DNA of 64,000 nt from Lysobacterales bacterium. GTDB lineage: Bacteria > Pseudomonadota > Gammaproteobacteria > Xanthomonadales > SZUA-5. Positions 24,919-32,866 of the stretch are shown piece by piece. The notes below the pieces were generated by a model, which made no database searches, was not told where the DNA came from, and saw only the letters and a list, made by a program, of their open reading frames with translations. The translations under genes and the position numbers were made by a program. Position 1 is the stretch's first letter. The number at the start of each line of letters is the position of its first letter. The stretch is taken from NCBI GenBank assembly GCA_019187485.1, contig JABAQR010000017.1:1-64000 (forward strand), written 5' to 3'.

Positions 24919-26466
<1,548 letters not shown>

Positions 26467-26474
26467 TTGAAGCA

Positions 26475-26580
26475 GTGAGTGGTGAATGGTGAGTGGTGAA
26501 TGGCGAAAGCCTGCACACCGCGACACCGCGCTACTCACTACTCACCACTGAGCGCGGCACAGCCGCGCGGACCACTCACA
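26475..26580 (+). repeat. composite inverted repeat, GTGAGT type (atpA-atpG junction)
   Basis: Left arm at 26475-26503 repeats GTGAGTG/GTGAATG; right arm at 26531-26549 is the complement (CTACTCACTACTCACCACT). It is followed by a hairpin GCGCGGC-ACA-GCCGCGC (26552-26568) and a further ACCACTCAC. The element lies between the atpA stop and the atpG start and would fold in the mRNA. Same architecture as the elements at 27460 and 29046. Confidence 0.8.
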
Positions 26581-26596
26581 GCGAGCGAAGCGAGCC

Positions 26597-27459
26597 ATGG
26601 CAGGCGCAAGAGAAATCCGGACCAAGATCAAGAGCGTGCAGAACACCCGCAAGGTGACGCGCGCGCTGGAGATGGTGTCGGCCAGCAAGATCCGGCGCGC
26701 GCAGGACCTGATGAAGGCTTCGCGTCCGTATGCGCGACTGATGCGCCAGGTGATCGGCCACGTCGCCAAGGCCAACACCGAGTACCAGCACCCCTTCCTG
26801 GTCGAGCGCGAGGAGGTCTCGCACGTCGGCTATGTGATCGTCTCCACCGACCGCGGCCTCTGCGGCGGCCTCAACGCCAACCTGTTCCGCCGCCTGCTGG
26901 CCGACATGCGCCAGTGGCAGGAAAAGAAGGTGCAGGTCGACGTGGTCTGCATCGGCCAGAAGGCGACCGCCTTCTTCAAGCGGCTGAAGGTGAACTTCGT
27001 CGGCTCGGTCACCCACCTCGGCGAGAAGCCGCGCGTGGAAGCCCTGATCGGCGCGATCAAGGTGATGCTCGACAGCTACATGCAGGGACGCGTCGACCGC
27101 CTGTTCCTCTGCTACAACGATTTCGTCAACACCATGACGCAGAAACCGACGATGAGTCAGTTGCTGCCGTTGCCGCCGGCAGACGACATCGACAGCAAGC
27201 ACGGTTGGGACTACCTCTACGAGCCCGGCGCGCCCGAGATCATGGATCACGTGTTGACGCGCTACATCGAGAGCCTGGTCTATCAGGCGGTGCTCGAGAA
27301 CCTCGCCAGCGAGCACGCCGCGCGCATGGTCGCGATGAAGTCCGCATCGGACAACGCCACCAAGCTCATCGGCGAGCTGACCCTGGTCTACAACAAGGCC
27401 CGCCAGGCCGCGATCACGCAGGAAATCAGCGAGATCGTGGGCGGCGCGGCAGCGGTTTA

Positions 27460-27460
<1 letters not shown>
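26597..27460 (+). CDS. atpG: F0F1 ATP synthase subunit gamma
   Basis: 287 residues: [27 protein letters not shown].. start and the C-terminal helix ([20 protein letters not shown], ..[12 protein letters not shown]) form the central coiled-coil rotor; [11 protein letters not shown] lies in between. Rotates inside alpha3beta3. Its stop codon is directly continued by the left arm of the next repeat. Confidence 0.98.
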
Positions 27461-29038
<1,578 letters not shown>

Positions 29039-29045
29039 CGGCGGC

Positions 29046-29137
29046 AGTGAGTGGTGAGTAGTGAGTGGTGAGTAACAGCTCGTACTCGCAGGCTCTTACT
29101 CACTACTGAGCGCGGCGCAGCCGCGCGCACCACTCAC
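29046..29137 (+). repeat. composite inverted repeat, GTGAGT type (atpD-atpC junction)
   Basis: Left arm 29046-29074 (AGTGAGTGGTGAGTAGTGAG..), right arm CTTACTCACTACT at 29095-29107, then hairpin GCGCGGC-GCA-GCCGCGC (29110-29126) and CACCACTCAC. The 3' half is nearly identical to that at 27520-27567, although the two spacers share little else. Confidence 0.8.
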
Positions 29138-29202
29138 CCGACGAAAAGGGTTCGACAGGGCCCGAAGCAACATCCAATGGCAGCAGAGGTAGTCCGTAGC
29201 CC

Positions 29203-29628
29203 ATGAGCACCATCCGCGTCGACGTCGTCAGTGCCGAGCACGAGGTTTTCCGCGGCGAGGCCAAGCTGGTGGTTGCCACTGGCGAGATGGGCGAGCTCGG
29301 CATCGCGCCGCGCCACGCGCCGTTGATCACGCGCCTGAAGCCCGGCCAGGTGCGCGTGATCCAGCCGAACGATGAGGAACTGTTCCTGTACGTGTCCGGC
29401 GGCATCCTCGAGGTGCAGCCGACGGTGGTCACCATCCTCACCGACACCGCGGTGCGTGCGGCCGACCTCGACGAGGCCAAGGTGCGCGAGGCCAAGGAAG
29501 CCGCCGAACGCGCGATCGCCAACCAGATGGACGCCAAGGAAGTCGCCGCCGCCCAGGCCGAACTCGCCGCACTCGCCGCGCAGTTGCAGGCGATCGACCG
29601 CTTGCGCAAGATGGGTCAGAAGCACTGA
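29203..29628 (+). CDS. atpC: F0F1 ATP synthase subunit epsilon
   Basis: 141 residues: N-terminal beta sandwich ([33 protein letters not shown]) and C-terminal helical hairpin ([19 protein letters not shown]..). It couples rotor to head and inhibits ATP hydrolysis. Last gene of the operon; no obvious terminator follows. Confidence 0.97.
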
Positions 29629-30114: not shown

Positions 30115-30339
30115 ATGTCCAGGCTGCTGCGACTGATGCGAGAACTCGGGGCCGACGCGGCCCTGGCGCAGGAGTATCACAACGATCCGCAGGCTGTGAT
30201 CGCGCGCTACGACTTGTCCACCGAGGAGCGCGATGCGCTGTTGGGCAAGGATTATGCGGCGATCAAGCGCCTGACCGGCCTCAAGGATGGCCAGTTCGCG
30301 ACCAACAGCACCGTCAAGGCTTACGACGGCCGCGACTGA
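30115..30339 (+). CDS. putative borosin-type RiPP precursor peptide (split borosin)
   Basis: 74 residues. Residues 1-56 are predicted all-helical: LMRELGADAALAQEYHNDP, then QAVIARYDLSTEERDALLGK and DYAAIKRLTGL. From memory this pattern matches the Shewanella SonA precursor (L-G-x-D-A-x-L-x-x-x-Y...N/D-P-x-A-V, L-T/S-x-E-x, K-x-L-x-G), whose helical 'borosin binding domain' resembles a LigA fold. The last 18 residues (KDGQFATNSTVKAYDGRD) would be the unstructured core whose backbone amides are methylated; SonA also ends in a Gly/Asp-rich tail. The stop is 10 bases before the methyltransferase fusion. An alternative reading is a stand-alone LigA-like helical protein, but the partner gene argues for a precursor. 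Confidence 0.8.
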   Translation: MSRLLRLMRELGADAALAQEYHNDPQAVIARYDLSTEERDALLGKDYAAIKRLTGLKDGQFATNSTVKAYDGRD

Positions 30340-30349
30340 GCCCGCGACC

Positions 30350-32866
30350 ATGCGCACGTTCCGTCCTCTGTTGTCGGCACTGCTGCTGGTTGGAGTGGCC
30401 GGGGTGGTGATCGCCGCAGAATCGCTGGATGAGCGCATCGCGCAGATCGAGCGCATCAACCGCACCCAGCCTTGGGAGGCTTCGGCGGCGTTGATCGAGG
30501 CACTCGGTCCCGACCGCACCCAGCTCAGCGAAGCGCAGCGATTTCGGGTGGAGCTGATCGAGTCTCGGAACCTGGCGCTGAAAGGCGACTACGAGCGCGG
30601 ACTCAAGCTCGCGCAGTCCTTGTTGCAGCGCGATGTGCCACCAGAGTTGCGGATCCGCGCGCTGACCCTGGCGGTCAACATCAGCGTCAATGTTTCCGAC
30701 TATCCGGGCGCCTTCGGCTGGCTCGAGGAGGGTCTCACCCTGCTCGATCGCATTCAGGCCCCGCAACCGCGCCTGCTGGGCATGGCCTCCTACCTGTACC
30801 TGCGTGTCGGCGAGGAGCGCGCGGCGCTCGCCTACGCCCGCCAGGCGCTGGAAGTCGCGCACGGTACCGGCGATCCACGCGACGAATGCCTGGCGCTGTC
30901 CGACCTCGCCATCGCGCTGGATCTGACCGGCAATCCGGGCGAAGCCGAATCGATGAGCCGCGCCCAGATTGCCGCCTGCGACCGCGCCGGCGATCCGGTG
31001 TTCCGAGCCGATGGTTACAAGGGCGTCGGCAAGGTGCTGGTAGCGCAGGAGCTGTACGCACAGGCGATTCCCTGGCTCGAACAGGCGCGTCGGCAGTTCC
31101 AGGCGGCCGGTTTTACTTCCGGCTACCTGGAGACTGGCGTCACCCTCGGCCGGGCATTGCTGAATTCGGGCGCTCCGCTGCGACGTGCCCGCGCGCTGGT
31201 CGATGAGGCGCTGCCCGTCTTCGAGCAACAGCAGGCCCGCGACAACATCGAGACGGCGCGCACGCTGCTCGCGCAGATTCTCGCGCGCGAAGGTAATGCC
31301 GCCGGTGCCCTCGAACAACTCCAGCTCGCGCGCATCGCGCACAACGAACTCGATGAAATCGCGCGCGAGCGCCGCCTGGCCTGGCTGCAAATGAAATTCG
31401 ACACCCAGGCCAAGGAACAGCGGATCGCCGAGCTGCAAGGTGAGCGCGAACTGCAGGCGGCCGAACTCGAGGCGCGCTCACGGGCGCAATGGCTGCAGGG
31501 CCTCGGTCTGCTTGCGCTGCTGCTGGTCAGCGCGTTGCTGCTCTCGCTGCTGGCGCGTGCGGTCGGTGAACGCCGGCGCTTCCGTGAGTTGTCCGAGCGC
31601 GACGGCCTGACCGGCTTGCGCAACCACCAGAGCGCCTTGCGCGCCGGCCACTCGTTGCTGCTGCGCTGCCGTCGCGACGGTCGCCGGCTCACCGCGATCG
31701 TCGCCGACATCGATTATTTCAAGCAGATCAATGATCGCCACGGTCACGCCGCCGGCGACGAGGTGCTGCGTCGCCTGGGGAAACTGCTGCTCGAAGTATT
31801 TCCGAAGCGGGCGGTGGTCGGGCGCAGCGGCGGCGAGGAGTTCACGATGCTGGTGGATGGCGCCGTCGAGCAGGCGCGCTACCTCGTCGAGGACTTGCGG
31901 CGGCGCATTGCGCCCTTCGAGTTTGAACAACGGCGCATCGACTACAGTCTCAGCTACGGCTTGTGCGAGGCCGACCCCGACGCAACCCTCGAAACCGTGT
32001 TGCGCAGTGCCGACATGGCGTTGTACGAGGCCAAACGCAACGGTCGCAACCGCGTCGTCGACGCGGCCGCTGCGAGCCTGTGCGCCCGCAGCGAACCGGG
32101 CCTGGTGGTGGTTGGCAGCGGCATCCAACTCGGGCGCCACCTGAGTCAACGCGGGCTGTCGGAAATCCAGGAGGCCGAGCGCGTGCTCGTGCTCACCGAT
32201 GGCGCCGCGCACGCGATGATCGCCGAGCTGCGCCCGGACCTGATTGACCTGCGCGTGCATTACGCGCCCGGCAAGGATCGCCGCCAGACCTACCGTGAGA
32301 TGGAAGCGGCGATCATGGCCGAAGTGCTCGCCGGCAAGCGCGTCTGTGTGGTCTTCTACGGCCACCCAGGCGTATTCGCCGATGTCCCGCACGCGGTGGT
32401 GCGCAAGGTTCGGGAGGCCGGCCTGAGCGCACGGATGGAACCCGGGATCTCTTCCGAAGCCTGTCTGTACGCGGACCTTGGCATCGATCCGGGTCGCCAC
32501 GGCGTGCAATCGCTGGAGGCCACCCAGTTCCTGCTGGAAGAACGCGAAATCGATACCCGCAGCCTGCTGTTGCTGTGGCAGGTGGCGCTGACCGGTGATA
32601 CCGCCTGCGTCCGCTTCCACGCCGAGCCGCAGGAACTGCAGCGGCTGGTCGAGCGCCTGCAGCGCGACTACCCGCCCGAGCATGAAGTGATTCTGTACGA
32701 GGCCGCGCGCCTGCCAGTGGAGCCTTTCCGCGCCGAGCGCATGCCGCTGCGCGACCTGGCGCGCGCGCACTACGAGGAATACACCATGCTGGTGGTGCCT
32801 GCTTGCGCACCGCGCCCGTCCAACCTCGCCGCGAGACTGCTCCAGGTGGCGCGCACCGGAGGCTGA
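30350..32866 (+). CDS. TPR - transmembrane - GGDEF - borosin alpha-N-methyltransferase fusion
   Basis: 838 residues. 1-22: signal or anchor helix. About 25-350: TPR-like helical repeats, probably periplasmic. About 350-378: coiled coil. About 382-403: membrane helix. About 412-570: diguanylate cyclase with DGLTGLRNH, DIDYFKQINDRHGH and intact GGEEF at 494-498; no RxxD inhibitory site precedes it. 583-838: SAM-dependent tetrapyrrole-methylase fold of the borosin type (VVVGSGIQLGRHL, YGHPGVFADV, MEPGISSEACLYADLGIDPG, LLLWQVALTGD). Tyr638, Arg644, Tyr648 and Tyr670 fit the OphMA Tyr63/Arg72/Tyr76/Tyr98 set: Arg-to-Tyr 4 and Tyr-to-Tyr 22 match exactly, and the first interval is 3 shorter. Predicted role: c-di-GMP synthesis plus iterative backbone N-methylation of the peptide encoded just upstream. 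Start ATG chosen at the signal helix. Confidence 0.85.
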   Translation: MRTFRPLLSALLLVGVAGVVIAAESLDERIAQIERINRTQPWEASAALIEALGPDRTQLSEAQRFRVELIESRNLALKGDYERGLKLAQSLLQRDVPPELRIRALTLAVNISVNVSDYPGAFGWLEEGLTLLDRIQAPQPRLLGMASYLYLRVGEERAALAYARQALEVAHGTGDPRDECLALSDLAIALDLTGNPGEAESMSRAQIAACDRAGDPVFRADGYKGVGKVLVAQELYAQAIPWLEQARRQFQAAGFTSGYLETGVTLGRALLNSGAPLRRARALVDEALPVFEQQQARDNIETARTLLAQILAREGNAAGALEQLQLARIAHNELDEIARERRLAWLQMKFDTQAKEQRIAELQGERELQAAELEARSRAQWLQGLGLLALLLVSALLLSLLARAVGERRRFRELSERDGLTGLRNHQSALRAGHSLLLRCRRDGRRLTAIVADIDYFKQINDRHGHAAGDEVLRRLGKLLLEVFPKRAVVGRSGGEEFTMLVDGAVEQARYLVEDLRRRIAPFEFEQRRIDYSLSYGLCEADPDATLETVLRSADMALYEAKRNGRNRVVDAAAASLCARSEPGLVVVGSGIQLGRHLSQRGLSEIQEAERVLVLTDGAAHAMIAELRPDLIDLRVHYAPGKDRRQTYREMEAAIMAEVLAGKRVCVVFYGHPGVFADVPHAVVRKVREAGLSARMEPGISSEACLYADLGIDPGRHGVQSLEATQFLLEEREIDTRSLLLLWQVALTGDTACVRFHAEPQELQRLVERLQRDYPPEHEVILYEAARLPVEPFRAERMPLRDLARAHYEEYTMLVVPACAPRPSNLAARLLQVARTGG

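Follow-up and report, generated by a model that had tools for sequence, protein, structure and literature searches.

Borosins and related peptide systems

The closest described counterpart of the genes reported here is SonA/SonM from Shewanella oneidensis, a split borosin of type IV (PDB 7LTC), in which the precursor SonA is a separate protein with a five-helix binding domain and a C-terminal core, and in which L63 and I65 of SonA are the methylated residues (PMC8429565). Mutants of Y58, R67, Y71 and Y93 lowered the activity of its methyltransferase, SonM (PMC8429565). In OphMA and other fungal fused borosins the core lies on the enzyme itself. A likeness of another kind is offered by the RRNPP receptors (Rap, NprR) with their Phr-type peptides, where a TPR superhelix is encoded beside a small peptide gene. 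The legend to Figure 1 of a further paper also lists GGDEF as one of the domains in borosin architectures already published (PMC11395268).

A pair of genes comparable with these systems lies on the plus strand of the window, the whole stretch of 64,000 nucleotides that was analysed. As in SonA/SonM, the precursor is separate and has a five-helix binding domain and a C-terminal core; unlike SonM, the enzyme carries TPR, transmembrane and GGDEF parts on the same polypeptide, and the core reads TNSTVKAYD where that of SonA reads YLVISHG. The methyltransferase fold and signatures are shared with OphMA, but here the core has its own gene and the enzyme bears signalling domains. With regard to RRNPP receptors, homology is claimed for the TPR fold only; the TPR domain in the window differs in that it is predicted to be periplasmic and signals through a GGDEF domain, and the peptide is predicted to be N-methylated. 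Going by the published figure legend, the pair is not the first of its kind. The borosin types in such drawings of GGDEF architectures reportedly come from Imani 2022 and Cho 2022. A TPR sensor or a one-to-one pairing in trans was described in none of the open-access papers found, and the novelty of these two traits is not certain.

The precursor gene and its tail

A sequence-only reading of this DNA had described a 74-residue open reading frame at 30115-30339 and, after a 10-base gap, a second gene running to 32866. This layout holds, with a gap of exactly 10 bases (30340-30349). The small gene (30115..30339) encodes a SonA-type borosin precursor of 74 residues, identified by its match to SonA, by a family profile and by Foldseek. 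Searched alone against the sequences of solved structures, the precursor matched SonA (7ltc_B) with an E-value of 9e-5, and a profile of 32 relatives, from the building of which SonA was left out, found SonA at 1.3e-17. The AlphaFold2 model has five helices over residues 3-54, followed by a disordered tail. SonA chains were the best Foldseek matches of this model (probability 1.00, TM-scores by target of up to 0.90), though with weak E-values (no lower than 0.06), which a length of 74 residues would lead one to expect; OphMA structures were also among the matches. The earlier statements that the small protein has a helical domain and shares the SonA pattern are therefore borne out. Precursor alignment, AlphaFold2 and Foldseek together delimit a five-helix borosin binding domain at residues 1-56 (30115..30282). 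The sequence opens directly with this helical domain and no signal peptide was seen.

Residues 58-74 (30286..30336) form the disordered core tail, as judged from the alignment of 32 precursors and from pLDDT values below 50. A flexible C-terminal tail had been proposed before; its length, given then as 18 residues, is 17 in the AlphaFold2 model. The clade-A tail motif TN[SGH]T[IV]xA[YH][DE] is kept among the 32 precursors, and the core in the window is TNSTVKAYD. In the alignment, S65 falls opposite L63 of SonA and V67 opposite I65, with tail spacing that differs by two residues. S65 and V67 are accordingly predicted, from the sites known in SonA, to be the most likely positions of alpha-N-methylation (S65 to V67, 30307..30315). 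The chemistry can be tested directly on the predicted core and methylation sites.

The methyltransferase domain

The signatures YGHPGVF, MEPGISSEACLYADLGIDPG and LLLWQVA, which had led to the C-terminal domain of the second protein being called a borosin methyltransferase, are all present. Alignment with SonM places a SonM-type alpha-N-methyltransferase domain at residues 585-822 (32102..32815), in which 108 of 238 aligned residues (45%) are identical. The catalytic residues Y58, R67 and Y71 of SonM correspond to Y638, R644 and Y648 (32261..32293). Likewise, Y93 corresponds to Y670 (32357), F99 to F676 (32375), E146 to E723 (32516), W166 to W743 (32576) and Q167 to Q744 (32579), all eight residues being kept, while E173 of SonM is replaced by D.

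When the last 259 residues were searched against solved structures, SonM was matched at 7e-62, OphMA at 2e-36 and the best cobalamin methylase, a precorrin methyltransferase, at 3.5e-4. Profile and structure searches against SonA/SonM and OphMA, which the sequence-only reading had proposed, matched both halves of the pair to SonA/SonM; the borosin identity of the domain stood, and no grouping with cobalamin or siroheme methylases was seen. Pfam names the large protein TP_methylase (E 1e-22) and, below cut-off, the small one LigA, from which the pair might be taken for a cobalamin- or siroheme-type methylase with a LigA-like dioxygenase subunit. The probability of this reading is negligible in view of the distance between the SonM and precorrin methyltransferase E-values, the SonA chains at the top of the structural matches of the small protein and the peptide-methylating residues that are kept, and the cobalamin/siroheme identity was rejected on these grounds. 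A grouping of the methyltransferase and precursor with the Shewanella split borosin SonA/SonM is supported by these comparisons, and N-methylation of the precursor is very likely.

The sensor, the membrane segment and the cyclase

The longest open reading frame of the second gene opens at 30287. The ATG at 30350 is preferred because it gives a signal-peptide-like start (MRTFRPLLSALLLVGVAGVVIAAES) and agrees with the homologues. The product has 838 residues (30350..32866) and is, according to the reading frame, Pfam, homology and hydropathy, a TPR/transmembrane/GGDEF/alpha-N-methyltransferase fusion. A fused N-methyltransferase had been noticed in the sequence-only reading, but its TPR, transmembrane and GGDEF partners were missed; of all parts, the fusion to a TPR sensor and a GGDEF diguanylate cyclase tells most about function.

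A hydrophobic segment at the N-terminus (residues 3-22, 30356..30415), recognized by hydropathy and kept in homologues, is a signal peptide or an anchor. It precedes a TPR superhelix, predicted to be periplasmic (residues 23-377, 30416..31480; AlphaFold2 and Foldseek), whose model has a mean pLDDT of 92.5. Its nearest Foldseek matches are peptide-binding TPR domains, namely LGN and Rap with Phr pheromones, and NprR and complexes of Rap with peptides are also among the matches; the TM-scores are about 0.5-0.6 and TPR folds are generic. Cys180 (30887-30889) and Cys210 (30977-30979) are both present in 96 of 96 homologues, while few other TPR columns are more than 85% conserved. A disulfide or redox switch formed by these two invariant cysteines is possible.

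Hydropathy further reveals a transmembrane segment at residues 379-407 (31484..31570), with a basic stretch after it. We infer a topology in which the TPR domain lies in the periplasm and the GGDEF and methyltransferase domains in the cytosol, where the signal-peptide-free precursor would meet the methyltransferase. The GGDEF diguanylate cyclase domain (residues 417-568, 31598..32053; Pfam GGDEF E 1e-32) has an intact GGEEF active-site motif (31829..31843, by alignment). The active site is intact in the homologues as well, the metal-binding residues are kept, and D453, D455, F457, K458, N461 and D462 are invariant. The RxxD inhibitory site upstream of GGEEF is absent from the aligned cyclase of the window and from nearly all clade-A cyclases, and is present in many of those in clade B (clades described below). 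Judged by its active-site residues, the domain would make c-di-GMP.

Relatives in Lysobacterales and the origin of the fusion

The methyltransferase is carried by 144 of 300 Lysobacterales genomes, and 60 more methyltransferase loci were drawn from named genomes. SonM is found beside two Lysobacterales clades in a tree of 99 methyltransferase domains. Clade A, which includes the window, has the gene order precursor, TPR-GGDEF, methyltransferase; in clade B the methyltransferase comes first, followed by a precursor whose tail is acidic and then by TPR-GGDEF. The fused proteins, including that of the window, form one nested group within clade A (support 96), and thus the fusion arose once. A Dokdonella metagenome-assembled genome (L046:688-6762) contains two complete units of precursor and fused TPR-GGDEF-methyltransferase in tandem.

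Clade-B and clade-A precursors align with an hhalign probability of 97.5% (E 6e-12), and a clade-B precursor profile returned SonA as its first match (E 3e-5). On this profile evidence, the small proteins of clade B are genuinely related to the precursors of clade A. Six loci (L131-L136, family f9) have very short precursors of about 57-62 residues between the methyltransferase and the TPR-GGDEF gene, with the tail E-[LM]-[VI]-C-x-x-x-P-acidic, and these are barely detected by profile. In several clade-B loci (L122, L124, L125) a gene for a GNAT-type acetyltransferase adjoins the methyltransferase gene, and is possibly a further tailoring enzyme. Two acidobacterial small proteins (L065:2544-2792 and L069:2729-3004), whose genes run antiparallel to the methyltransferase gene, have a weak binding-domain match and a tail rich in proline and aspartate.

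Pairing of precursor and TPR-GGDEF genes

A TPR-GGDEF protein is encoded beside, or fused to, the methyltransferase at 75 of 75 Lysobacterales loci with enough flank, the sole exception (L100) being a locus cut by a contig end. Outside the order, none of about 40 sampled loci (Legionella, cyanobacteria, Acidobacteriota and others) was so classed. Precursor reading frames lie directly before a TPR-GGDEF gene in 91 of 92 cases, and the remaining one precedes a second precursor that does. None of the loci in these counts was selected for a GGDEF gene, and a random gene should rarely stand beside one, because the window's own genome has only 35 GGDEF matches.

The pairing also holds at a distance from the methyltransferase. 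With the clade-B precursor profile, 15 precursors (L181-L195) distant from the methyltransferases found were picked in the same 300 genomes, a sixteenth pick (L196) being set aside since it has a methyltransferase; all 15 lie directly before a TPR-GGDEF gene, and their genomes carry a methyltransferase elsewhere. What is conserved is thus the combination of peptide and cyclase, to which methylation is supplied either in cis or in trans. As the pairing persists without a methyltransferase domain on the cyclase or nearby, the TPR-GGDEF sensor is likely to be the functional partner of the precursor, with the methyltransferase in the role of a shared modifier.

The same observation bears on an explanation that stays within the cell. 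GGDEF catalysis needs dimers. The borosin methyltransferase SonM needs a dimer as well (PMC8429565), and the two dimer-dependent domains are fused here. The unmodified precursor, which starts with a helical domain and has no signal peptide, could then act in the cytosol with nothing sensed outside, its docking altering GGDEF dimerisation, or the TPR/GGDEF state could time methylation. However, clade B and the 15 orphan pairs keep the pairing although their cyclases have no methyltransferase domain, and such intracellular gating is held to be unlikely.

At two tandem loci (L197, L198), one methyltransferase is followed by two precursor/TPR-GGDEF pairs. Arrays at these two loci and at L048, L127 and L140 comprise two or three precursors, at least one TPR-GGDEF gene and a single methyltransferase, and the cores differ between copies. 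In the reverse direction, a precursor was found upstream of 17 of 19 strong TPR-sensor matches in eight genomes; two TPR-GGDEF genes of one genome (G037) had no detectable precursor. Each of the 96 genomes in which a clade-B-type precursor was strongly detected also has a methyltransferase.

Borosins and other RiPPs that have been studied are mostly described as natural products (PMC8429565, PMC11395268). By analogy, the peptide might be an ordinary secreted antibiotic or metallophore, its production switched by c-di-GMP, with the cyclase a mere operon regulator. The tandem loci have one cyclase per precursor and not per operon, the clade-A tail is conserved and not diversified, and no conserved exporter, peptidase or immunity gene lies nearby in six fused homologues, which together render this origin of the pairing quite improbable. 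The near-constant adjacency of a sensor suggests instead that Lysobacterales borosin peptides are signals, not antibiotics.

A possible peptide-to-c-di-GMP circuit

For bacterial split borosins, the one-to-one pairing of precursor and TPR-cyclase points to a role in peptide-to-c-di-GMP signalling. The pair in the window is probably an N-methylated peptide/c-di-GMP signalling module, a split borosin built into a membrane signalling protein. In the proposed mechanism, the cytosolic precursor would use its helical binding domain to dock on the dimer of the methyltransferase domain, and its tail would thread into the active site to be alpha-N-methylated, most likely around S65/V67 by comparison with SonA. 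In relatives, the methyltransferase may sit on another protein, encoded by a neighbouring gene or elsewhere in the genome. Across one membrane helix, the periplasmic TPR superhelix would control a c-di-GMP-making GGDEF domain, the domains themselves being evident and their activity presumed. After release by a peptidase, the peptide would belong to the TPR-GGDEF sensor as its dedicated partner, and a single circuit would link the N-methylated peptide with c-di-GMP output, as the gene pairing implies. The peptide considered as a candidate TPR ligand, N-methylated or plain, is TNSTVKAYDGRD.

Peptide sensing by the TPR domain is a prediction on which a co-variation test gave mixed results. In clade B, tail and TPR distances co-vary beyond the GGDEF and binding-domain distances (partial r 0.30, 0 of 1000 permutations), whereas in clade A, that of the window, such co-variation is absent (partial r -0.06). 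Because of this difference, the receptor model is treated as a working hypothesis. The lack of a conserved adjacent peptidase or exporter gene, the generic TPR fold and the two G037 cyclases without a precursor also count against the signalling module. A wider proposal, conceivable but more doubtful, is that N-methylated borosin peptides serve autocrine or paracrine signalling in Lysobacterales: each would have a TPR-GGDEF receptor encoded directly downstream, and one methyltransferase would serve several pairs in a genome; in the window, maker and receptor would be a single polypeptide.

Genome and surroundings of the window

One methyltransferase was found by searching the genome of the window. 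Another contig carries, on its minus strand, a second precursor (MNRTLAFLESLG...) whose tail is acidic, together with a TPR-GGDEF gene of its own (L004:5064-7138, equivalent to C39:33063-35137). This pair is preceded by a GNAT gene, inside which the assembly stops. A genome of the same genus (G059) has the order methyltransferase, GNAT, precursor, TPR-GGDEF; therefore a second methyltransferase beside the C39 pair may simply be unassembled and is not taken to be truly absent. A precursor-like match on a further contig (C21) of the same genome falls within the reading frame of a transposition-type gene and was taken to be a chance match.

Upstream of the precursor in the window, no c-di-GMP riboswitch or other Rfam element was found, and a promoter scan gave nothing beyond chance level. 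Around six fused homologues there is no conserved biosynthetic neighbourhood (peptidase, exporter). Directly upstream in the window are the ATP synthase genes for the alpha, gamma, beta and epsilon subunits (24919-29628); the borosin pair stands outside this operon, with 486 bases between them.
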